Positions 6,747 to 27,700 of a DNA stretch of 64,000 nucleotides are shown piece after piece. A model generated the notes under the pieces. It saw only the letters and a list, made by a program, of their open reading frames with translations. It did no database searches and was not told where the DNA came from. Numbering within the stretch: the stretch's first letter is position 1; each line of letters begins with the position of its first letter. This DNA is from Arbacia lixula (taxonomy: Eukaryota; Echinodermata; Echinoidea; Arbacioida; Arbaciidae), in NCBI GenBank assembly GCA_963669155.1, contig OZ022591.1, positions 4,122,356 through 4,186,355 of the forward strand, written 5' to 3'. Position numbers and translations under genes: made by a program.

Positions 6747-9700
6747 CTGTGGAAATGTGATATGGTTTCATTAACAAACTATATGTACTAGGTTAAATTT
6801 CGGTGAAAGGGCTTAATTTTGAAAGGAAATTCAAGCATACACCCAGTAGTAGTAAGGATAGTGTGCTACATTCTGTATGAAAACCAAGTCAGAAAAAAGG
6901 TCTTCGAACCAGATGGATTTAAACGTAGCCCGTCCCTTTTGCAGACATTATTCTTAAAGTTCCCTGACTTTGTCATCATTTGAGAGAGAGTGGCTACAGT
7001 ATATAACCTTTCCCTGGAATCGACAAAGAATAATATTTGGTTTTGAGGAGATAATCGTCTACACTTCGTCGAGCTTTCTTTTTTCGTACCACGAAAATAG
7101 TAAAATCTCAGTGAAAACTAGTTAGATTTAATTCATTCTAAGGGAGTTATAGTACCTCTAACCTTAAAATTGCACAGTTAGTATCCCAAAGATATGTGCT
7201 AAATATGTGCAAACTTTCATGAAGTTTGCAGATGTTTGCAAAAGGGACGGGCCATCTTTCAACCTGCTATCCATTGCTTATCGGGCAGCGACTGGGAGTA
7301 TCAGTGTGCCTAAAATTCATTTTCAAAAGACGCAAGTATTTGTACAACAATATTAATACTTTACAATATCAATACAATCAAATGTCATAACTATCACATT
7401 TAGCCATTGCTAATAAAGACAAAAAAATAGCACAAGTGCTAGTCGAGTCTGGCCCTCATAGTAAACATTTTTGGCAAGATACAATTCTCAGCATCTACGT
7501 TGGTAAGAATGTAAGGTAGTCTAGAGAGTATATCATGACATGCAATTGTTATTTCAGGGTAGAGAACTATCAAGACTATGAATCAAAATGTGTTGGGAAA
7601 TTCATTGATTCATGTGAATCCTTACGCAAAGTTAAAAAATGGGAATTCTTATGTATTGCATATTAATAAATATAAGTGATAAGATAGCAGACACAATCAG
7701 AAGAGTTTTCGAGCTAAATAATAAGTTTCAACATAAAAACACAAGTTTGAGGTGATGTTTGATTGTATGTTTTCCACAAAAAAAAGTGCTAAAAGCTGTG
7801 AAAGCAGAGGGATGATTACATTTGCCTCTGCGAAACAATTGCATGAAACGTGGTGGAAGATGGTCATTGGGCAGTATAATAATAATAATAATAGAGCACA
7901 TTTATAACGTGCCTAATACTATGTTTCTAGGCGCTGTGTTGCTGCTGTCCCCGCAGTCATTAAGTGAAGTTCTATCCTTATACCAAATGGAAAGCTGGGA
8001 CAGCAGCACCACGATTAAATTATCCCTTTGAGGATATTATTGAAAGCATACGGGTGAAGCGCTTGCTCACCTGGAGGGTTCTGCAATGAGTTATTGAGGG
8101 CCTGGACAGCAAACAGTGCTTGCAGCTCACGTTCAGGAACGCTGTCGATGTACCGCATTAAGACAGGACTCAGACTCTTCAGGTTAGCAGGGTCTATCCT
8201 ACAGTTCTGTCCTTCACCTAAGGGTAAGGTGGAGAGAAATCATCATATGAAGCAGTTGATATTTCCAGTGCATTACCACTTACTGCCTACTGCACTGATT
8301 ATTACCTGGTATACTTTTCACACCATCAAATTGTCCAAAGCCCACAGTGTCTTCACACCATTTTTTTTTTATTTACCAAAGTTAGTGAGAGAAATCAAAG
8401 CATTAAAAGATGCAGTCATAATCTAGTGCATTCCCATGAACACCTTAAGGCCTTCATTTAAACTCCAGAATGTTTTTTAAGCTCACTTCATTTTCAATTG
8501 GGTTTTTACCACAGTGTGTTAGCCCCAATATCGACAAGACAGGAACGTCACTAAATACAAAACTGTTGCCAATGAAAAGAGGAAAGGGCGGGTAAAAAGG
8601 AGCAAAATAGAAAATCAAAACAACAAGAATGAAAGTGACAGAAAAAGAGATAGCTTTAGAAGAAACACTAAACTGGAAGACAGGGGAAGAAAAAAGATAG
8701 GTGGACAATACACACGCTCTGCAAGAGTGTAAATGACAGAAATACCAGGCAAAGAGGGGAAAGATGGAGAGCCCGATCAATCTTGAGTACGAATAAGTAT
8801 AAGTACTCCCGATGGAAAGAAAAAGGAGAAAATATTAATACATGATAAAGAAGTTGCATTGCTTTACCTTCTGCTGTATGCTGGCAGATTATAGTAACTA
8901 AGGCACGGATGAATTCATTGTGCTTCCTTTGTGGTTCTGTCACATTGTGCTGAAATAAGAAGATGAAATAATAAATTATCTTGCAATACTGTATGTACAA
9001 AACATCATTAAAAGTGGAGGTTACAAATAAAACATGCCACTTTTCTACAAATATGGCTTTACCTTTAGAAGAGGCAAAATAACTCATCCAAGAAATAATT
9101 AATATTTCTGAATTCTATAATAATTGTTCCTTGTGTGACAGTAGAGCAAATTCTTTTTCAGGATACGTCCAATATCTCATGATTTTACTTCTGTCAATTT
9201 TGACTCAGCGTCACTGAAAATGGTCACGTTTCCACACACAAAACACCCTGAAATTTGGGCAAAAGAAAATATGACAGAGCCTGAAGTATGCTTTTGCTTG
9301 AATACTAGCACTCTAACATACGATACTTTCTTAATGTATTCATAACTTTACCCCTAAAGTGCATTTCAATGTTTCAATATTTTCAAAGTTTCAATGGATG
9401 GAATGCACTCTGAATCTAGGAGCTTGTCAGAAAAACCTTTGACAAGTTTTAGGGTTACCGTTAGTAACATAGTTTTAACGATGTATACAATTTGCATACA
9501 CAACAAATTTGATCTATTGGTCCATCTCATCTATGTTCTTACCTGAATCCAGTCAAGTATAGCGTTCACGTCTGGCTTCTCTCTAAGTAGATTTGTGAGC
9601 CCTCTGTTGATGACCTTGAGCCAGTCGCCCTGCGAGTCTGCCTCCACACTGTTGAGGCCGTTGTCAGCGGTGCTTGCCCTGTCTAACGTGAACTCCACAC

Positions 9701-12700
9701 CCTGCAGAGAACAAGGAGAGAGGCAACACCATGAGATACCAATCCAACTCATAAATGTCAATGAGCAATCTTGGCCCAGTGTCAAAAAGCTGCTTTTGAT
9801 TGCAACTCACAGTATCACAAGCCATCAACTGCTTTCTATTGCAAGTCCTAACCTACCCATAATTGTGCAATCAATCAAATAGTTACGATAGATCCACACA
9901 AGCTACCATCAAAATCAATTGCAATTTAAGATATTCTATTGAAGCTTCATTGTGATACAGATTTACCCCGTTATAATGAGAAAGTCGGGACCCACACTTT
10001 TTCCTTGCTATAAGCCGATTACTCCCTATACCAGTACATGATCAAAACATACAGAAACAAATGCATCTATAGGACTACACAAACAATAACATATTTACCG
10101 CTAGGACTGTAATATTTACATGGCTTTGCAAGCATTCTAAACTGAATTCACTAGTAATGAATTTGTTTTATTTTTGGTATTATATTGTCTTATTACATCT
10201 ATTGTTGAGAATTTATCTGATATGTTTATAGAATCTACTGCACATTTTCGTGGTTGAATCGTATTGGGACTACATGTATTAGCCATGTACGTGAAAGTAC
10301 ATTGGTGGGAGGTGCACTGAATGTATTTATTCTGGTTAATTACATTTGTGTGTTGTATGTTTGGAATTTACACATGGCGGCTATTGTACTATTTTCGGTT
10401 TTGGGAGTCATAGGAGTGGTTAAAGATATGGGGGAAGTCATCTGGATGTGATTGAAAGGGTGTATGGAGTGGTTTACAGTATGTTTGAGAGTATATTTTT
10501 GTTCAATTTTTGGCAATAATGTTTTGTTATCTAGGTATTATCTTGAAATCAGCGTTGTGGATTTGTTGGTTTGAAGTATGATTTTAACCATAATAGTAAA
10601 GGATAAGTAGATTTGGTGTGATAGATTAATATACACTGTATTTTTTTATATGTTAGTGGTAAAGATTGATAGAGTTGTTGGTATGAGTGATTGAATTATA
10701 TTATTTTGAAGTCAAATTTGTATTACTTGTACTTTGGTGGTAAAGGGCCATTTTCAGTCATATGGGGGATCTGTTTTGTTTATTTTTAGATACTATAGGT
10801 AACTTATAATTTGTTTGGTAATTTGGTTACATGGTAGTGTAGTTGTGATGACCACCTTAACAGAAGTAGTGGACATGATTTTGGTGTGGATTAGTATCAA
10901 GTTGAAGTGAATGTTATTCATTTATTTAGCATTGAAGGTTTTGAGATAGTTATGTGAATTAATTGAACCTATATTCATCTCTCTGTTTCATAATTCATGT
11001 TTTTTTTTTCTATTTATTGTGTGTGCCATTTTTCAGAAAAGCAAGTTCTGGACTGTCACCGTCGAAGGGGCTACAGATCCAACTATGTGAGTATAATATT
11101 GTTAAGGTGTATCTTTTTATGATATCATACATGTAATCACGGTTCATGCATGGTGCATGCCTTAAACAGAAAAGTGATATAGGTCTTTTGTACATTTAGA
11201 GTGTAATTTGTTTGAAGAGTGACCTTTTAGGATGGGGCATAATATGTTATATAAAGGTAGTCATATTTCCTGTTAGATTGTAATTGAAATTTTGGGAAAT
11301 TAGACAAGTTAGCTGTTACTCAGCATGAATATAATTCCTGCTATTGTAGAGCACAGAAATACATTAAGGCAGCAGTGAATCATATCACTTTAAGTCTTGA
11401 AACAATTGTAAGAAATTATTATGTTACAATTAAGTTATTAAGATCATAAAGGTTCAGTTAAATAATGGTATCTTTGCAATTATTACTTAGTTAAGTAAAT
11501 GGACGGAAATGAAGTATATGCATTTTAAGTGTTAAACTGTATTGTTTTACCTTTTGTTGGTGAGTTGAAAAGAGCGAGTAGAGGTAGTATTTTGTTACAT
11601 TTACTTGGTAATACATATGTGTTATATATTTGGCTTGAGTACATAAAGGAAATATACTTTTATGGAGGACACAAACTTTAAAACGTGATTGTGAGCAATG
11701 CTTTAATAATAGTCTGAAAGTCATGTAGTGTCCTTTTGAGAAACTTGTTGAAAGTTATTTGCTGTCAATTGGTCCACATTTAGAGTGATTAGTGATCAAA
11801 CCACAAATCCTAAATTGTTTATTGTAAATTGTAAATTTATGATTTATTTGTTAATTTCTACAAAAGTTTTCATTAAAGAGCATTTAATTTCAACTAGGTT
11901 TTAAAATGAGATTCACTAATTTACAAGTGTGGATCATTTGAAGGTTAATGACTTTGAGCAAGTTTTTAAAATGAACTAAACATGAATTTAAGACCATTGG
12001 TAAAAAGTTTGTTCATTAACCCTTGTTGAGAGCGTTTTATCTTCTTTATTCTGACTGGGGGTGGGGGTTATTTTGACTGTCTAGCTTTGCTTTCACCTTC
12101 CCACTTCCCCTCCCCCCCACCACATACGAATATTCGTTTGACGTGCACACGGTAAACATCACGGTAGCATTTTCTTTACTTTATTTTTTAAAGTGCTTTC
12201 AGCCCATGATAGCAAACAGACGTGAGCAACATATTGTAAATAAATGTCAGATAAATGTCAACATTTCATCAAAGTGACCCCATTACACCCCTCCCCCCCC
12301 CCTACAGTCTAAACCTGCTGTCAAAGAAATACTTAGAGTAGGGTTTAGATTTAGTTTAGACTTAGGGTTAGATTTATTTGTGAAGTGGTCAGTAGTTTTT
12401 ACTACGATAATTGTAAAAATATATCAGTACTGCAGCTTGACTATCATATGAAGTTCCTATGCTTTGAAAAGTTTAAAATTACTCAGTACAATTGGTACTG
12501 TGAGTGTCATTGTTTTTGATGATGTAGTTTTTTTTTTCAGCTGAAAATTTGATTATGTAAATACAATATAGCTGTGGTATTTTATTTACAATATTTGTGA
12601 ACAGGATGTTTACATGAACATGTGCTTTTGATTTAAATTGCAGATTTCCTGTAGAATTGATGCTTTCTGGAGGGGATTGCTTAACTGTTGATAAAGGCTT

Positions 12701-15700
12701 CGGTCTCAACTTCTCAGAACTGCCCATGGTGATAGTCGTTAAAAGAGAGGGTGGGGTGATTACCAACATGGAGAAATTCATTGGTACGTATTAATGTGTT
12801 AGGATTAGTTGCTAGGAGACTGTTTTAATACTTTTGATAAGTGGTTAAAAAGTATTACCTTGAAGTGAAGTTGAAATAAAGATAATTTATCAATGTAATT
12901 TAAAGAACTTTAATTTTTACAGAAGCATGTTACGTGACGTTATCTAGATTACCAAACATGCAGTATTTGGAAAATTTTATTGTGATTTATTCATGTGGGC
13001 TACATTGAATCTCAAAGTGTTTGTATCAGAAATTATTTTAAATTCAGTATTGACTAGTATTCACCTGCATCCACTAGCATTTCCACTACAGTTTGTTAGT
13101 GCAATATATTCTTATGGTCAAAATGACCTGTGACTGGGCCTAAATTATATACTGAACATTGGGCATTGTGCTGTAAGTGAAATATTAGTTAGAATGTTGT
13201 TTAAATTATAAAGTTCACTCATTTTCAAAGTTGAAGTCACATTGAACTGTACACAGAATGTTAATAATAAGAGATAAAGTAATGTAAAACCTGTTTATAG
13301 TGAATTTGTGATTAGGCTGTTTTTATTTTGTGTTTTTACCACTACATTGGACTGTAAATTTATTTTTGATTATATATTATTTTTAAGTTTAAGGAGTATT
13401 TATATTTGTCAACCAGTATGGAGGTTTTGGTATATTGCTTGTAGTGTAAAGTAACTACATATATGTGGTATTTATGGTAAATTTTCTGCTCATGAGTTAT
13501 AATTTGTTATTTGTCAATGCCCAGTTTATTTGCTAGAAAGTGTGATGTAATTTGTACAATTTTGGTTTGATTGATTTGTTGTAGTGAGTTGTTATAATTG
13601 TTGTGTACTTTTCCAGAAGCAGTAGTTGGGTCATTGTTAATTACTGGTGCGTAGTTACATTAGTTTTACTTTCTATATATTTTATAGGTGTATATTACAT
13701 CATCATTGTTCAAATTGATAGCTTTTAAAGTATTGTTAACTTGTTGTGGACATATTTTGGCTGTTTGTTTTGGCTGAATTCATTACATTAATAGAGATAC
13801 GGCTCTAGCAGTACCGCACGAATGTAATGTGGACATATGGGAGGCCGTGCGTTTAACGGCGTAAAGAAAATTCCCTGGCTGGGCGGCTTGGCTGAAGTGA
13901 GTGCTAGTAATAGCGGGGCCAATTTCCTTGCTTTTTCTTTATTCTTGGGCTGGGAATTTGCCTCGCTATAGCAGAAATTTCGCTATAGCCGATCTCGTTA
14001 AATGAAAACAGAATACACGGAGGTCTATGGAAGAAAAATCGGGACCCAAGAAATGTCCTCGTAATAACAGGGTTCTCGCTATACCCATGCTCGTTATAAC
14101 GAGGTTTGCCTGTATTTTATTTCATTTATTTTCTACATACAACATACAAATAAATACACATTAAAAACAAATAAAATAACAAACTTATTCACCATAAAAA
14201 CGGATCATAATTATGACTGATGGATATATCAAACAAATAATCATTCAATTAATTGAATGTTTGATATTTTCAGAAGTCAGAAAAATATCAAATCAATCTA
14301 ATGTAAATATACAAAAAATGTGTATGTAGTACCATATTTAAACTTTTTAGGGTCTTGCTTTTTTTATCTTGCCTGAGAAATTTTCTGCCTGATTATTCAA
14401 TTTGAGTTACCATCAGGGTTTCATTCACTAATACCATTTCAAGGAAAAGAAAGACGCAACTTACTTTTCGTTTCACAAACTCTTGCACATCATCTCCTGA
14501 GGGTAGAAAGTCCTCCCATCGAAGACTTGACTGCTGCCATATATGGCATGCTTTACTAGCACCCTGCAAAGGACAAACAACAAAGCACAATTACTATCTA
14601 TCACTCATATCAAAAAACAAAAATGTCAGCTCAGTACACAAAATATATTAAAGAGAATATGCGTGAAAAATAGTGGCCATAATAGGCAAAAGAACGTAAC
14701 ACGAAATATGTTCTGAGAAAAACGAGATTGAAAATTTAATCCTTTCTCATTTTTTGTCTTTTAATTATGATTTTTTCAAAACATTCCTTTAATATATTTT
14801 CACAAAATTTCAGTAAAATTGGATTCGATGTTTCAGAGCAAATTACATTTTTAAAATAGATGCAGCTCTTTGCCATACGAAGGCACTCTCCGGAGGAGAG
14901 TTTCTAATTCTAATGTTCTAACGCAAGTCAAGATACGATCTTTAGCCGAATTGATATGTCACCACAGGAGAATACTTTTGTTGGGATACGTTCTTTTGCC
15001 AAATTCATAAGTCTCTGCAGGAGAAAGAGCACATCTTATTTACCAAAATTACCTTCTCAATTAAAAAGCCAAAATTTGGGGTTACGCTCTTTTGCCTTAT
15101 TACTTACGTCGCACAAGTATTCTCCCACGGAGATGCATCAATTTGGCTGAAGAACGTACAATGTATTTGATTGATTAATAATATATATTTCCTGGAACAT
15201 CAGCACCCCAGCCTCCTCTAGGAGTGGGTTGATGGCTGTACCCTCATGCCCACCCCCAACCACCATCCTCTGCCAACACCCACTACCATAACCAAGCAGC
15301 CAACTCACATTTCTCCTTGTAGTCTCATGCCCACCCCCAACCACCATCCTCTGATCAACACCCACTACCATAACCCAAGCAGCCAACTCACATTTCTCCT
15401 TGCAGTCTCATGCCAACCCCCAACCACCATCCTCTGATCAACACCAACTACCACAACCCAAGCAGCCAACTCACATTTCTCCTGGCAGCCTCATGCCCAC
15501 CCCCAACCACCATCCTCTGATCAACACCCACTACCACAACCAAGCAGCCAACTCACATTTCTCCAATGCCCACCCCCAACCACCATCCTCTGATCAACAC
15601 CCACTACCACAACCAAGCAGCCAACTCACATTTCTCCTTGCAGTCTCATGCCCACCCCCAACCACCATCCTATGATCAACATCCACTACCACAACCAAGC

Positions 15701-18700
15701 AGCCAACTCACATTTCTCCTTGCAGTCTCATGCCCACCCCCAACCACCATCCTCTGATCAACACCCACTACCACAACCCAAGCAGCCAACTCACATTTCT
15801 CCTTGCAGCGGTCCTGAGAATCTCTGCCAGCAGCACCCCAGCCTTTTCATGCTCCAGGAGTGGTTTGATGGCTGTCGCCTGCAGCTGGAGGGCCTCTCCC
15901 CCAGCAGTAGCCCCTGCGACCATGCCTCCCTGGATCTCCCCCAGGTACTCGTAGATCTTGGGGATGTCAATGGCCATGTCCTCTGCAAACTCAATCATGC
16001 CTGTGAACCTGTGAGGGTAATCAGTGGTAAGAAGTTAAAGTTATACAACATATCACATACCAAACCTCACAACAGAGGTCAAAATTAAGATTGGGGTTAA
16101 AATCATGTAATTTCAAGATAGCATATTCATTTTGCAGACAACATAAAATTTTGTAAAGCATTGCGTAAAGTACAAGTACAACTAAAAATGTTAAAAGAAA
16201 AAGGGCTGAGTATTGCTCTTAGTGAAAAGCTTTTTTTTTTAATGATTTAATTAGATCAAGGTATTGACTTGATCTTGACTTTGATAAACTCATTCACATT
16301 TCCTAAAGCTACGGTTAAGACATGACCAAGAAGATTCAAGTTAAGTTGAGTGTTGAGTGTTAGCTGTGACATTTTACATGAAGACATCTGTGGAATGTCT
16401 AATTTATAACATAAGATTTACTAACAAAACATAGAAAGGAGTTAAAACTCTTATTCAGACAATGCCCCTGACTTAGGAGAATGCGCAAGCTCACACTTAA
16501 AATGAGAGAACGTGGTAAGCTTACCCAGCTAAGTATTGCTCTTTGGTGAGAAGCTTCTTTTCAATGAGCGCCTGGAAGAGGACGCCTGTTGCCTCCCTCA
16601 TGTCCTGCTTCTTCTCGATGACGTGCTCCACTGTGGCTGACACAAACAACTCCCTCTGCCTGCTCGGCAGCTCAGACACACACGTTGTGGCCTCCTAAAA
16701 GCACAAGCATTGGTACAAAACACAGATTTAATGACCCTTGACAACAAGACCCAATCCTAGCTCAAACACATGCATTGTGACCAGAAAGCACACGGATTTA
16801 TGAAGTACGGACGGACAGACGGAAACCCGAATAGATAATGCCTACGGCCACTTCGTGGCAGAGGCATAAAAATAATGGCTTAGTTATAAGATTATACAGA
16901 GTGATAATGACACAGACAATTAGATCTCATTATAATTCTTGCACACACTGGCCCCTCTAGACAAACAAGCATCAGTTTGATAATACACAGATTTCATGGC
17001 ATTGACGATACCCATTTCTGCAGAACTGCATAAATTTGAATAAAGCACCTCCACAAAATGGTCTCTGAATCCCTGTCTTACAACTATCCCAAGACTGACA
17101 TTGTGAGTACAGCAGAAAAGAAATGATTGGTATGCACTTACATTCAGGTCCCTGAGGTTGATGAACTCTTCCACTATTGCAATGGCCTTCTGCTTGAATT
17201 TCTCCACTGGCATGTCAGGCTCCTCCTTCTTCTCTGGCCTCGAGATCTTCTCTTGGGATCCTGCGCACAAGCACAAACACAAAAATAATCATGAATATGC
17301 TTTGAAATAGCTCTTTTCTCATACATAGTACCACTCAAAGAAGTTTGATTTTTACCCTGGCTTTAGCCAAGAAGCGTTATTCAGCGCTACAAGCTAATTG
17401 ACTTACTTAAATCAGGAATAAATCCTGCCAGAGTACCAGTTTAGTACAACTGGATCAGAGGAACAAACATGAGCAAAACGCCACTCCAAAGGCTCAGTTT
17501 CATTCCTGAATTTGAATGTATTGCTTCCAACATGTAAGCCACTTTTGATGTGTTTAATCTCTCTGGAAATTCGAAGACAGCGTTATCCAATCAGAGGTCA
17601 TCTATATCCTTAACTCAATGCTCCAACCAATGGGGACCAGATGTCTTTTTAGGGTTTGTGTTTAGGGCCTGTTTTACTTAAGGTGTCCACTTGTCCTGGC
17701 TGCCCTGCTAGTGTGGAGCTCTTCTTTCCTCATTTGATACGTACCCCTACCCACAGAGCTGGACTGCTCTGACCTTGATGGCCTCCCTCTGCTCAGCTTG
17801 TGCACCTCGGCAATGGCAGCTTCCTTTTCCCTTTCCCTCTCTCTTGAGGACCGCTTGCTGATTGGTGACTGGCCCCTTCCTCTCGAGTCCCTTGACCCGA
17901 ACCCTGATGAGCCTCGGCTGGTGGTGTGGATAACATGGCAAAAAGAGGCAATTATGCAAAGAACTGTTGTTGGTATAGTGAGATAAAATAAACCCAACCC
18001 TTATTTGTTGTGTGTTGTGTTCTTGAATGTATTGTGTGAACCCGTGTTGTTCATTGCACTGTATGTGCTGCCAGTAGTCAGAGGCAGTACAGTTAGGAGA
18101 AGTGACATGTTTTATTTCAAAATGCTTTACCTTGCTTATAGTAATATCAAAATCAAACTTTTCATGGGCAGAGAGATAGGATTATTAAAAGTCTTTTTTT
18201 TTTTTGCATTGCCATGTCATTTTCCAGTTTCTACTCTAATCCACATACCAGGAATATTCTGGAACCTTCCTGGTTCCAGCCTTATCATGGAACAGAAACC
18301 CAAATTTGTACGTTAACACAACACAACTAAACTGTCCTAGGCCGGGATTCAGGCTTTCCCTTCAAAGCTGGCATCCCCATATTTAGTCCTAGACCTGAAA
18401 ATTACAAAAAATGTGTTGGTTTACGCACAGCAAAGCTTGAAACACAGCCAAACCTCCCAGAGCCTGACTGAATACAGGCTTTCACTTTAACGCTCTCAGT
18501 CCTGTGGAAGTGTGTAGGAACTGAATGTGATTTTCATGGCTTGACATCGAGACGAGTTAAAACAAGACTCCCAGAGTTTACAGCAGCAGCACCCCTCCTC
18601 TTACCTGATGGGCCTTTTGGCATCTTCACTGAGCATGGAGAAGCGGTTTGCCTGCTGTGGCGTCGAGTCCTCTTGGGACGAGGCAGAGGCAGAGTCTGCA

Positions 18701-21700
18701 GACTCCTTCTGGTTCTTGTTGGTGCCTCCGCTGCTGCCTCTCGTCCACATGTTGAAGCTGCGCCCGCCTGGTCCCAGCTGGATGTTGTCGTCCGCTGCAA
18801 TCTGCATGGATAAGGTCAGGAGAGTTACTTCCAAGTTTCAAGTTCATTTCTCTGATAGCTCTCTATTGTAAATATTCATACAATTGGGTTAGAATAATAA
18901 TGGCTTCCTATATAGTGTAGGGCTCAAAGCTTGTACATTTTAACCTGGCTTTAGCCACACAGCTGCATTCACCCTTGGCTCTATAATCATCCGTTTATCC
19001 CATAATACCTCAGGTAGTTTGAATGTAGGATTTTCTGTGCAACAGACAAGTGCTCTCACCACTACACCACAAGGGTCGATATATTGTGCCATAACACTAG
19101 AGGTTTGAACGCAGGATGTTGTATACAATAGGCAAGGACTCTCATCACTTTATCACAATTTAGGTCCTCACCACAGTTGAGGAAGTTTGAACCCAGGGAC
19201 ACTTGTTAGCAAAACTTTGCAAATCACGGGCCCTCACCACTACACCAAAGCAGCCAAGATCTTGAATCATAAGCACTGGCGTAGTTGGAATTCATAATCC
19301 TGGGCCCTCACAATAGCTGGAGTCTGATGAGAGGAAAGGACACTCAGCACTACACCAAAGCGGTCAAATTCTTGAGCGTACTCACCCTGGTGAGCTTGAG
19401 CTTAGAGGGGTCGTAGACCGTCCTGGTCTTGTTGGAGGTCGGCACCGTGTTCCAGCCGTCGTCAGCCTGAGGGGGCCCCGTCCTGGGAGGGGGCATCAGC
19501 TGCTGTTCCCGGCTACGCCCCTTGTAGGCCTTGAGCTCCTCTGCCTTCTTGGCCTCCTTGATATGCCAGTCCCTATGGATGGCATCAATGGTCTGTGGCT
19601 TGTTCTCCTGTCTCCTCGGCACCCAGTTGTTCTGTCAACAACAAAAATAAAGAAGTCAAATATCCTGATAGAATACAACCATAAGGTATTACTAAACGTT
19701 GTATTTTTTTTCCAAACAGTATTAATCAATATCCTTATATATCGTTATACATACAATTAACACTTTTTTGATGATTGGACTTTTAGAGAGCAATCTTGGA
19801 AAAGCACAAACCTATGCGAAATCTCACTTTTTGGTCTGACATGCGATTACGTAATGTTACGCAACCTCTAAATGCAGTGCCCCCCCCCCCCCCCCCAGTC
19901 AGAATTGGTTGAAAGCACCATCTTTTTAATTTATATGAATATCTCATTAAATGCTTGATTAATGATAGAATATGAGTGTAAAATAACACAGATGACGAGC
20001 AAAATAGAAAAAAAATAATTTTGCAACTGCAGGTCATATCAATTATGTTCTCCAATTTGTTAAGATTTGTGGGGAAACTTCCGAGAGAATTTAGTTTAAA
20101 TGGACATCAGTATGGGCTTTCATGGGGATCAACACAACACAAGTTACAAGGGCGATTGATTTAAAAAAAAAAGATTCTTTGCATACAAAAAAAATAGACG
20201 CTACACACCTTTCTAAGATCTAGGAGATCAGCCATCAGAAATCTAATCCTCGGTGGGTTCTTCTTGGACTGAATGATCTTCTCGACCTTGACGAAGTACT
20301 GGTCCATCCGATTCTACAGCAGGCAAGAGGAAAGAACAGATATCTATCAACAGTGTGAATGAACATACATAGCATACAACTCTGTTACAACATTCAGAAG
20401 AGATAACGATGTTCACCATAACAAATTGTATCATATCATATTGTATTGTACGGGGAAAAAATGGCTGCCTTCACGGTCGATCCAAAATTCCAGCTTCTCT
20501 CGGACCAAGATATTGAGGAATTAACCAATAGAAATACTTCAAAAAGTTATGATGGCATGTCGTGTTCAAATCAAAATTTAGGACTTCTAGGCCTAAGACG
20601 TTCCACCGTTGTTGGAGTGTCACATCATACGAACTAGTGTTTTTCTGTTGCTGTTGGTGTTTAGAGGTTCGTGGAAGCAGCCACTTGATTTCTTCATAGT
20701 GTAAACTCTTGTAATATGGGAAATGCATCAAAATCTCCAAAGTACCGGTAGACCTAAGTGAAATAACCTTTAAATTCCGACCTGTCTTATAAAATAAATA
20801 ATGCACAGTTAACGTTCGATACGTTGAGGCGGTGCAGCGCACGGTAAACACCCTCATCCCGTGCGCTGCACAGCCCCAATGCACTCACAAGTGTGCATTA
20901 TTTGTATAATATGCCTACCTTGGCCTTTTCATGATCCAGGTCCTTGCCGATGGTGGCCATGAGATTGCAGAGGCACTCGAGGGAGTCGTCATCCTTGGCC
21001 TTGAGCAGCTTCATCACGCACTCGTGCATGATGTTCTCCGTCAGGATGCGCAGCTTGTACAGCTCCCCAATGAAGCGCATGTTGCCCATGGTGCGCCGCT
21101 TCTCCTTGCCCAGCTTCTCCTCCAGGAGCTCCAGCTGGGCTGCACGCTGGTCAGCCTGTGAGGGCAGCAGACAAGATTGTGAGAAGATGTCACGGCAGTG
21201 AAAAGAAATATGTGGGTGCGACGGGGTGCTCAGAATAATTCAGCACCCAAATTGCAAAAAACAAAGCTCCTTACAAGTATCACAGCGTATAAGGCACAGC
21301 ATGATCAATTTATGAAGTTAGGCTTGAGAAGTAGTCCCCATATACGCTTTTCCTTTCTCCCTGAAAATGGATCAAGAACTACACAGATTGATGGTAACGA
21401 GACTTGACGGCCAAGGTTGAGCAAAACAAAGTTTAGTCTGTGCAGGAATAATGATTTCAATATGGGTCTCAACACCACTATTCTACTAACTGGTGGTACA
21501 CACTGAAGAGTGCTTCTTCGCCTATTTTTAATAAATTTGGGATCGTATCATGAATACATTATCTATCTTCCTTATTATTTCCAGCACCAAATAAAATTGA
21601 AGTGTTTTTTTCATCCATCCATCATTTACATATTGGGCAACTCAAAGAGGCATGTTTCCAAGCCTCGTCGACGGTTGATCATATTACCAACACCTACCAA

Positions 21701-24700: not shown

Positions 24701-27700
24701 GAAACAAATAAACAAAAAGTTCCGTAAACATTGCAATGAAACAACCATCTCAAAAACAGGAAAATTCCTGCCACACAGAGAAAATCAATCAGTAGTTTAG
24801 TGGTAATGCTAAATCAACTGGAAATCTATTACCGTTACTTGTGAAATTTTTCACTAATGAGAAGGTGAATTATAAAAACAAAAGTCTAAGAATCAACAAG
24901 AAATATAAATCCATAGGAGATGAAAGAAGAACCATGGAAAAGAAAGATACTGAGAGAGAGAGAGAGAGAGAGAAGGGGAGGAGACAGGATGAAGGACTCC
25001 AGATAAGGACATGAGATGAATGATAATATAAGACAAGACAAGGAAAGAAAAGAGAAAAGAGGCAAATAAAAGAAAGTCACTCACTACATCCATGACAATG
25101 AAACACAAGGTCAAGAGAATTGCAAGAAAAAAAACAATGATGGAAGTATCCATATAGGAAGACTAGACAACAGGAATGAGATGCTATGAGAAGCAAGTAC
25201 AATAAAACTGAAAAATCACTTACTTTGTCCAGAACAATGTCAGGAATGTTTGGAAGCCCATCAGGTTTGTCTGTGCATCCCTTCTGGAACTGCAGAAGGA
25301 AGTCACGGTCGTATTGTTTCTTGCCCTCTAGATTCGCCGGGCTCCATTGGCCTGAAAGGGGAAGCAATCAAGAATTCATGGCTACCTTCAACCCTTTAAA
25401 ATAAATGAACACACCACCTTCAAAATTAGATTAGGTCCGTGAGGTCACTAATCAATACAAGTCATCATATTTCCCACATTTCCTCTTTCTCATGAGTGGG
25501 AGGAAAGCAAGGTCTGCTGCACAAAATTATCAATGACACCTTCACTAAAGTATCACGCACTTTATAAATTGATACATTGGTACCATTAGTAGTACAGTTT
25601 ATTGAGTAAACTCAAAATCTGAGCACTTAAATTAAGGACTCAGTTTGAAAATGTCCAAGGTTTTTATTTGCCCCGAGGCGTTCCTACAGCATGCCCCAAT
25701 ATGGGGCTTTGTGATGCCAAGCAACATATGCAATAACAACACAGTCATATGAAGAATGCTGGTTCATAACTGTATGTGTAGGTGTTTGGTCATATTTACA
25801 GCTCACCAAATAAATATAAGGGAAGAACTAGCTGGAACAAAAGAGGAAAAACTAACTAAGATACCTGAATTTGGGGGCATTTGTGTCTACTGATAACAGA
25901 AGCTTTACAGTGAAAAAAGTCACATGGGGACTTTTAGCTGCAGCAATTCCAATAAGAGCCCCTGATAATTACATAAGAGCCCTAGTAAACACATTTTTTT
26001 AATCTCAAAAGGGTGTAATGCTTTCTGTGGTTCAGGGTGTCCATTTTATTATATCAGTCTTAAAAAGAAGCCCTCACAAAACACTGTTTTGAGAACACAC
26101 ATTTAAGTCTTGAAGCTTTATACAGCTTTCATCTTCAGCATTCAACCTTACAGGGGGTGCTTAAATGGCCCCTTGTTACATAATGTTAATCACTGGTCCC
26201 CATTAAACTGATGCTTAATCATTTAATCCCTTGTGCCTCTTTGTTGGGGCACAATGTTGTACAAGTACAAGTACTGTACAGGTACTGTGCAAATACAGGA
26301 TTTTGCCTGGCATACAAAGTGTTCACCTCTTCTTTACACAATTGTTCTCTGCCATAACAAGGCATTAGCAATATTGTGTCTCGCCCACTTGCGAAAATAA
26401 CCAGAAATATCGCGATCTCCGTTGCTACGCAAAAGAAAACTGAAACAAACAAATAAGCAACTTTAAACAGACAACATCAAAATCAGGTGCAAAATAGTGA
26501 CTTTGAATAAATTTGCATAAATGTGCATGAGTAATGTTTGCCTAAATCTACATCAGTAATGCTCACACATGCTCGCACAATTCTGTGCACAAGTTAGGAA
26601 GCCTTCACCAAGAGTCTTGCAAGTAAACTTTAATGTATGACCTCAAATGACCTTTGACCTTATCATGTGACCTCTTACAGCACAATAACATGCAGGTGCC
26701 CCCAGTGCATCCATCATCCAAGTTTGATTGCCATTGTAGCAACATGTGATGAGTTATGTGTGATAAGAGAGTCTTGCAAGTAAACTTTAACGTATGACCT
26801 CAAATGACCTTTGACCTTATCCTGTGACCTCCAACAGCACCATAACATGAAGGTACCCCCAGTGCATCTATGACCCAAGTTAGGTTGTAATCCAAGCAAC
26901 CTATGTGAAGTTATTTGTCAAAAGAGAGTCTTGCAGGTAAACTTTAACGTATGACCTCAAATGACCTTTGACCTTATCCTGTGACCTCCAACAGCACCAT
27001 AACATGTAGGTACCCCCAGTGCATCTATGACCCAAGTTAGGTTGTAATCCAAGCAACCCATGTGAAGTTATTTGTCAAAAGAGAGTCTTGCAGGTAAACT
27101 TTAACGTATGACCTCAAATGACCTTTGACCTTATCCTGTGACCTCCAACGGTACCATAACATGAAGGTACCCCCAGTGCATCTATGACCCAAGTTAGGTT
27201 GTAATCCAAGCAACCCATGTGAAGTTATTTGTCAAAAGAGAGTCTTGCAGGTAAACTTTAACGTATGACCTCAAATGACCTTTGACCTTATCCTGTGACC
27301 TCCAACAGCACCATAACATGAAGGTTCCCCCAGTGCATCTATGACCCAAGTTAGGTTGTAATCCAAGCAACCTATGTGAAGTTATTTGTCAAAAGACAGT
27401 CTTGCAGGTAAACTTTAACGTATGACCTCAAATGACCTTTGACCTTATCCTGTGACCTCCAACGCCACCATAACATGAAGGTACCCCCAGTGCATCTATG
27501 ACCCAAGTTAGGTTGTAATCCAAGCAACCCATGTGAAGTTATGGATGATGGATCATAAGAGAGTCTTGCAGGTAAACTTTAATATTTGTGACGGACGACG
27601 GACGACGGACGGACGACGGACGGACGACGGACGACGGACGGACGACGGACGGACGGACGACGGACGGACGACGGACGGACGACGGACGAACGCCATTTGG

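Follow-up and report, generated by a model that had tools for sequence, protein, structure and literature searches.

Published Tigger elements, cut-and-paste transposons of the pogo branch of the IS630-Tc1-mariner group, are given in the available text of PMC9219625 as mostly about 2.8 kb long (range 1018-4525 bp), with a TA target duplication and terminal inverted repeats (TIRs) of about 20 bp (8-33). The TIRs of most pogo families reach up to 40 bp, as stated in the accessible part of PMC7386202, and Tigger elements are polyphyletic on the transposase phylogeny in the corresponding part of PMC7325037. Here we describe a segment at 9958-14112 of a 64,000-nucleotide stretch of Arbacia lixula DNA (the window) that has ends of this type. 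The reading that we favor, and consider reasonably probable, is that of an old insertion in an intron of an eIF4G gene, non-autonomous, bounded by Tigger/pogo-type ends and non-coding inside.

Inverted ends in an eIF4G intron

The segment makes up 4155 of the 4763 bp of a minus-strand intron between two consecutive C-terminal eIF4G exons (Table 1). When joined, the two flanking exons matched eIF4G chains in PDB (best 1ug3, E 2.9e-08) without a gap at the junction, over a part of the protein that we take to be the W2 region, and a MIF4G domain was detected on the minus strand at 20898-21239 (E 3.3e-18). This placement in an eIF4G intron on the opposite strand, as read from splice sites and homology, was missed in the preliminary description of the locus. 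Along the minus strand of the window, 9543-21239 holds eIF4G exons as judged by homology, and open frames rich in Q and P that continue upstream to about 36456 resemble the same gene by appearance.

Table 1. Coordinates of features in and around the segment (positions in the window)
Feature	Position	Strand	Remarks
eIF4G intron enclosing the whole segment	9702-14464	-	4763 bp; splice sites in sequence; flanking exons gapless against eIF4G chains
eIF4G exon downstream of the intron	9543-9701	-	
eIF4G exon upstream of the intron	14465-14563	-	
Left arm, Tigger/pogo-type TIR CAG...ACCCCGTTATAATGAG	9958-10140	+	directly after TA; inner limit approximate
Right arm, TIR CAGGCAAACCTCGTTATAACGAG	13795-14112	-	read inward from 14112, TA on outer side; inner limit approximate
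Degenerate motif copies, left arm	9967, 10004, 10022		
Exact motif copies, right arm	13962, 13979, 14090		
Interior, AT-rich, no Pfam domain found in any frame	10141-13794	.	T>A and G>C on plus strand; limits approximate
Nested palindromic repeat	11680-12044	.	relative at about 52214-52531, same window
Proposed exons 11037-11086, 12644-12783, 13617-13646 and 13688 to stop at 13726-13728	11037-13728	+	not established as a gene

The two boundaries carry inverted CAG...CGTTATAA ends. As in a target-site duplication, TA stands both 5´ of 9958 and 3´ of 14112, a pairing that often arises by chance in AT-rich DNA, and the short terminal inverted repeats of Tigger/pogo elements are present, though the two ends have diverged. 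Compared as an inverted pair, their first 25 bases agree at 18 positions, the top count among 15,982 TA-flanked pairs with one end at ~9000-10500 and the other at 13500-15000; since runner-up pairs reach 17 (two pairs) and 16 (three pairs), the end match alone is weak evidence. With up to three mismatches allowed, ACCYCGTTATAAYGAG has five matches in the window against 0.96 expected, four of them within the two arms, where two represent one palindromic site.

Both arms also contain copies of a motif near YTCGYTATARC, a consensus drawn by eye after both arms had been inspected. At up to two mismatches, 68 matches were counted in the whole window (right arm 10, left arm 4, interior 2, outside 52). 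All four exact matches fall in the right arm, and the four matches in the 183-bp left arm correspond to three distinct sites, one of them palindromic. Given the shared motif, the left and right arms are probably of one kind, and the Tigger/pogo-type inverted ends with TA flanks reported in the preliminary description are borne out by this motif together with the 18/25 match.

Past ~25 bp, the arms aligned no better than random pieces of the window, with local alignment scores of 13.5 (inverted) and 21.0 (direct) compared to 26.5 to 28.5 for the top three of 462 controls. Because the match is limited to 18 of 25 bases and no alignment extends further in, the ends could derive from two separate Tigger-type copies or fragments that by chance flank unrelated intronic DNA. 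We regard this arrangement as improbable: the arms are opposite in orientation, have TA outside both and share the motif, the skewed interior starts close to the inner end of the left arm, and no oppositely oriented 16-base end core (≤3 mismatches) lies between the ends to complete either arm as a separate short element, although truncated fragments could lack such a core anyway. The plus-strand core match at 14088 arises because the right end is palindromic.

We also searched for relatives of the segment. Within the window, neither the arms nor the interior was found a second time, the nested repeat aside. The 15-base end core matched 29 stretches in viral contigs, but blastn of all 29 against the arms and interior gave no alignment longer than 21 bases, and these matches were therefore taken as chance; a longer end pattern gave no matches in viral contigs or in prokaryote genome contigs, and a 14-letter end core was not found in any paper of one open-licence library. 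Elsewhere in the window, we noted a 157-bp tandem repeat of about 6 copies at 26611-27582, which contains GACCTTTGACC and precedes an array rich in GACGGAC at 27590-27692, as well as an 83-bp tandem repeat of 7 copies at 15243-15808.

Composition and content of the interior

A Pfam search of the interior in six frames, with stops masked as X and E values up to 10, returned no families, and neither a CENP-B-type nor a DDE transposase domain was detected, in agreement with the earlier statement that the interior does not encode a DDE transposase. In the absence of a transposase domain, the segment would be at most a non-autonomous Tigger/pogo derivative, and since Tigger elements are polyphyletic by transposase, the family name is provisional. 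Other candidates were also considered. A mitochondrial insertion, prompted by the strand skew, gave no Pfam matches under code 5 in six frames, and no Rfam families at gathering score and no tRNA genes were found in the whole window. The palindromic repeat at 11680-12044 is probably a separate foldback or MITE-like insertion.

The base content of 10154-13773 is A 0.293, C 0.114, G 0.199 and T 0.394. The resulting keto excess of 0.186 is greater than the absolute value in all 532 non-overlapping windows of the same size, the largest of which is 0.139, of opposite sign, at 14001. Nowhere else in the window is the excess of T+G on the plus strand as strong.

The interior is delimited by a shift in composition at about 10158 on the left and a rise in G+C near 13800 on the right. 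Such shifts are also what would be seen if a Tigger-type MITE of ~0.5 kb, comprising both arms, had been split by a later, unrelated 3.6-kb element or DNA segment, an alternative that we consider unlikely but worth weighing. In its favor, a 12-bp direct repeat (11/12 match) is present at 10142-10153 and 13774-13785, near the limits of the interior; this repeat was noticed post hoc and lends weak support, as 12 of the random window pairs drawn at these sizes (up to 400) also had one. Further points against a later insert are the position of the right keto-skew change point at 13960 (range 13936-14134), which is inside the right arm rather than at 13785, and the fact that no domain of a retrotransposon or a transposase was found in the interior.

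The proposed plus-strand gene

The preliminary description read the segment as a Tigger-type element that had captured an intron-bearing gene encoding a multi-exon protein on the plus strand. We judge this highly improbable. In line with the proposal, GT and AG are present at the junctions 11086/12644, 12783/13617 and 13646/13688, and the joined frame is open from 11037 for 86 aa to the stop. G+C content rises to 0.43 in 12644-12783 compared to 0.24 to 0.26 in 12501-12600 and 12801-12900, and the excess of T over A and G over C on the plus strand is of a kind that can arise in transcribed strands. Other features of the frame argue against a gene. Upstream of 11037, the unspliced frame is open back to a stop at 10947 with no ATG, and the earliest in-frame ATG is at 12660, within the second proposed exon, although a start codon might lie in another exon further upstream; no AATAAA or ATTAAA lies between the proposed stop and 14112. 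The joined peptide had no Pfam match in a 64-residue form, its only PDB match was at E 0.24, and a short pattern from it matched 16 stretches in viral contigs, none of which was confirmed.

Exon scores were computed with general metazoan splice matrices and a codon model built on eight regions of the minus strand (913 codons) that were taken as exons, some by appearance only; these regions are richer in G+C than the interior, such that an AT-rich gene could be under-rated. When each was held out in turn, the eight regions scored 14.8 to 81.2. In the claimed frame, the main exon, 12644-12783, scored -0.8, 13617-13646 scored 6.9 and 11037-11086 scored 18.7. The last value exceeds that of the weakest held-out exon, 14464-14560, and because this exon reached only 14.8, short true exons may be missed. 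Within the segment, the highest-scoring interval was 12085-12151, which is not a claimed exon. Its score of 23.0 compares with a 95% point of 21.75 and a maximum of 29.2 for the top intervals of 200 order-3 shuffles, and 11037-11086 in a frame that was not claimed reached 21.8, just over the 95% point. Best intervals in 13 other plus-strand windows, which take in the antisense of real exons, ranged from 11.7 to 42.1, with four above 23.0.

A chain test that uses no codon information gave the three claimed internal exons 20.3 and 11.3 at its two penalties, compared to medians of 41.5 and 17.4 for the best chains of shuffled copies. The best chain in the segment, which has 11 or 12 exons and differs from the claimed one, lies in the upper tail of the shuffles. 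At a penalty of 10 it scored 59.7, a value equaled or exceeded by 10 of 200 shuffles and by none of 25 half-overlapping plus-strand windows (highest 51.3); at a penalty of 13 it scored 25.1, and higher values were seen for 33 of the 200 shuffles and for 2 of the 25 windows. The minus strand of the segment gave 14.5 and 6.0.

By these crude tests, recognizable coding exons, as would be expected for a captured intron-bearing gene, were not found. The GT/AG dinucleotides and open frame at the proposed junctions stand, while the chain built on them falls below the shuffled median best; together with the negative score of the main exon, this leaves the multi-exon protein unsupported. Capture of an intron-bearing gene fares no better, given that no relative was found in Pfam, PDB (best E 0.24) or viral contigs, the negative main exon, the weak chain and the lack of an ATG before the second exon. 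Of the other option raised at the outset, a cellular gene nested between two copies, the cellular gene finds no support and the bracketing by two copies is retained as a slim chance. The proposed plus-strand gene is not established, and the insertion probably contains no gene. We consider it very doubtful that a Tigger-type element here harbors an orphan gene with introns, intact and transcribed from the plus strand, nested antisense in the eIF4G intron.

Origin of the segment and comparison with known systems

For the old non-autonomous insertion that we favor, another copy would have provided the cut-and-paste transposase, which would have recognized the ends and inserted the element at a TA, a step assumed from the behavior of the family. 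The interior would be non-coding filler with a plus strand rich in T and G, and the palindromic MITE-like repeat may have entered it later. Splicing of eIF4G would remove the whole segment along with the intron, and the segment would not be expected to yield a separate product. We infer from the features of the locus that both ends came in a single insertion event, that the element moved in the past and that its interior is functionless. Speaking against this reading are, besides the limited match of the ends and the lack of a second copy in the window, the strand skew of the interior, which the reading does not account for, and some exon scores near or just above the shuffle 95% point; a length of 4.2 kb is also long for a non-autonomous element.

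If true, capture of an intron-bearing gene by a Tigger-type element would mean that gene transduplication also reaches this cut-and-paste family. As it stands, the segment is most likely one more old intronic transposon insertion, and it mainly serves to illustrate that a gene can be mimicked by chance splice sites in T-rich DNA.

Transduplication by Turmoil-1 of C. elegans is similar in that an animal DNA transposon carries host coding pieces, but the pieces captured by Turmoil-1, in the available text of PMC2572040, have identified parent genes, whereas for the segment neither a parent gene nor a domain was found in Pfam, PDB or viral contigs. For Tigger/pogo elements, no case of gene capture was found among the titles and abstract openings listed from one open-licence library. 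The segment resembles non-autonomous pogo/Tigger MITEs in having ends without a recognizable transposase and differs from them in its length, 4.2 kb compared to well under 1 kb for most MITEs. The letters of its ends presumably resemble those of mammalian Tigger elements. Compared to Tigger elements overall, the segment differs in that its ends have diverged and no CENP-B-type or DDE domain was found, and is similar in its inverted ends of ~20-25 bp, its TA flanks and a length within the range given in the available text of PMC9219625.
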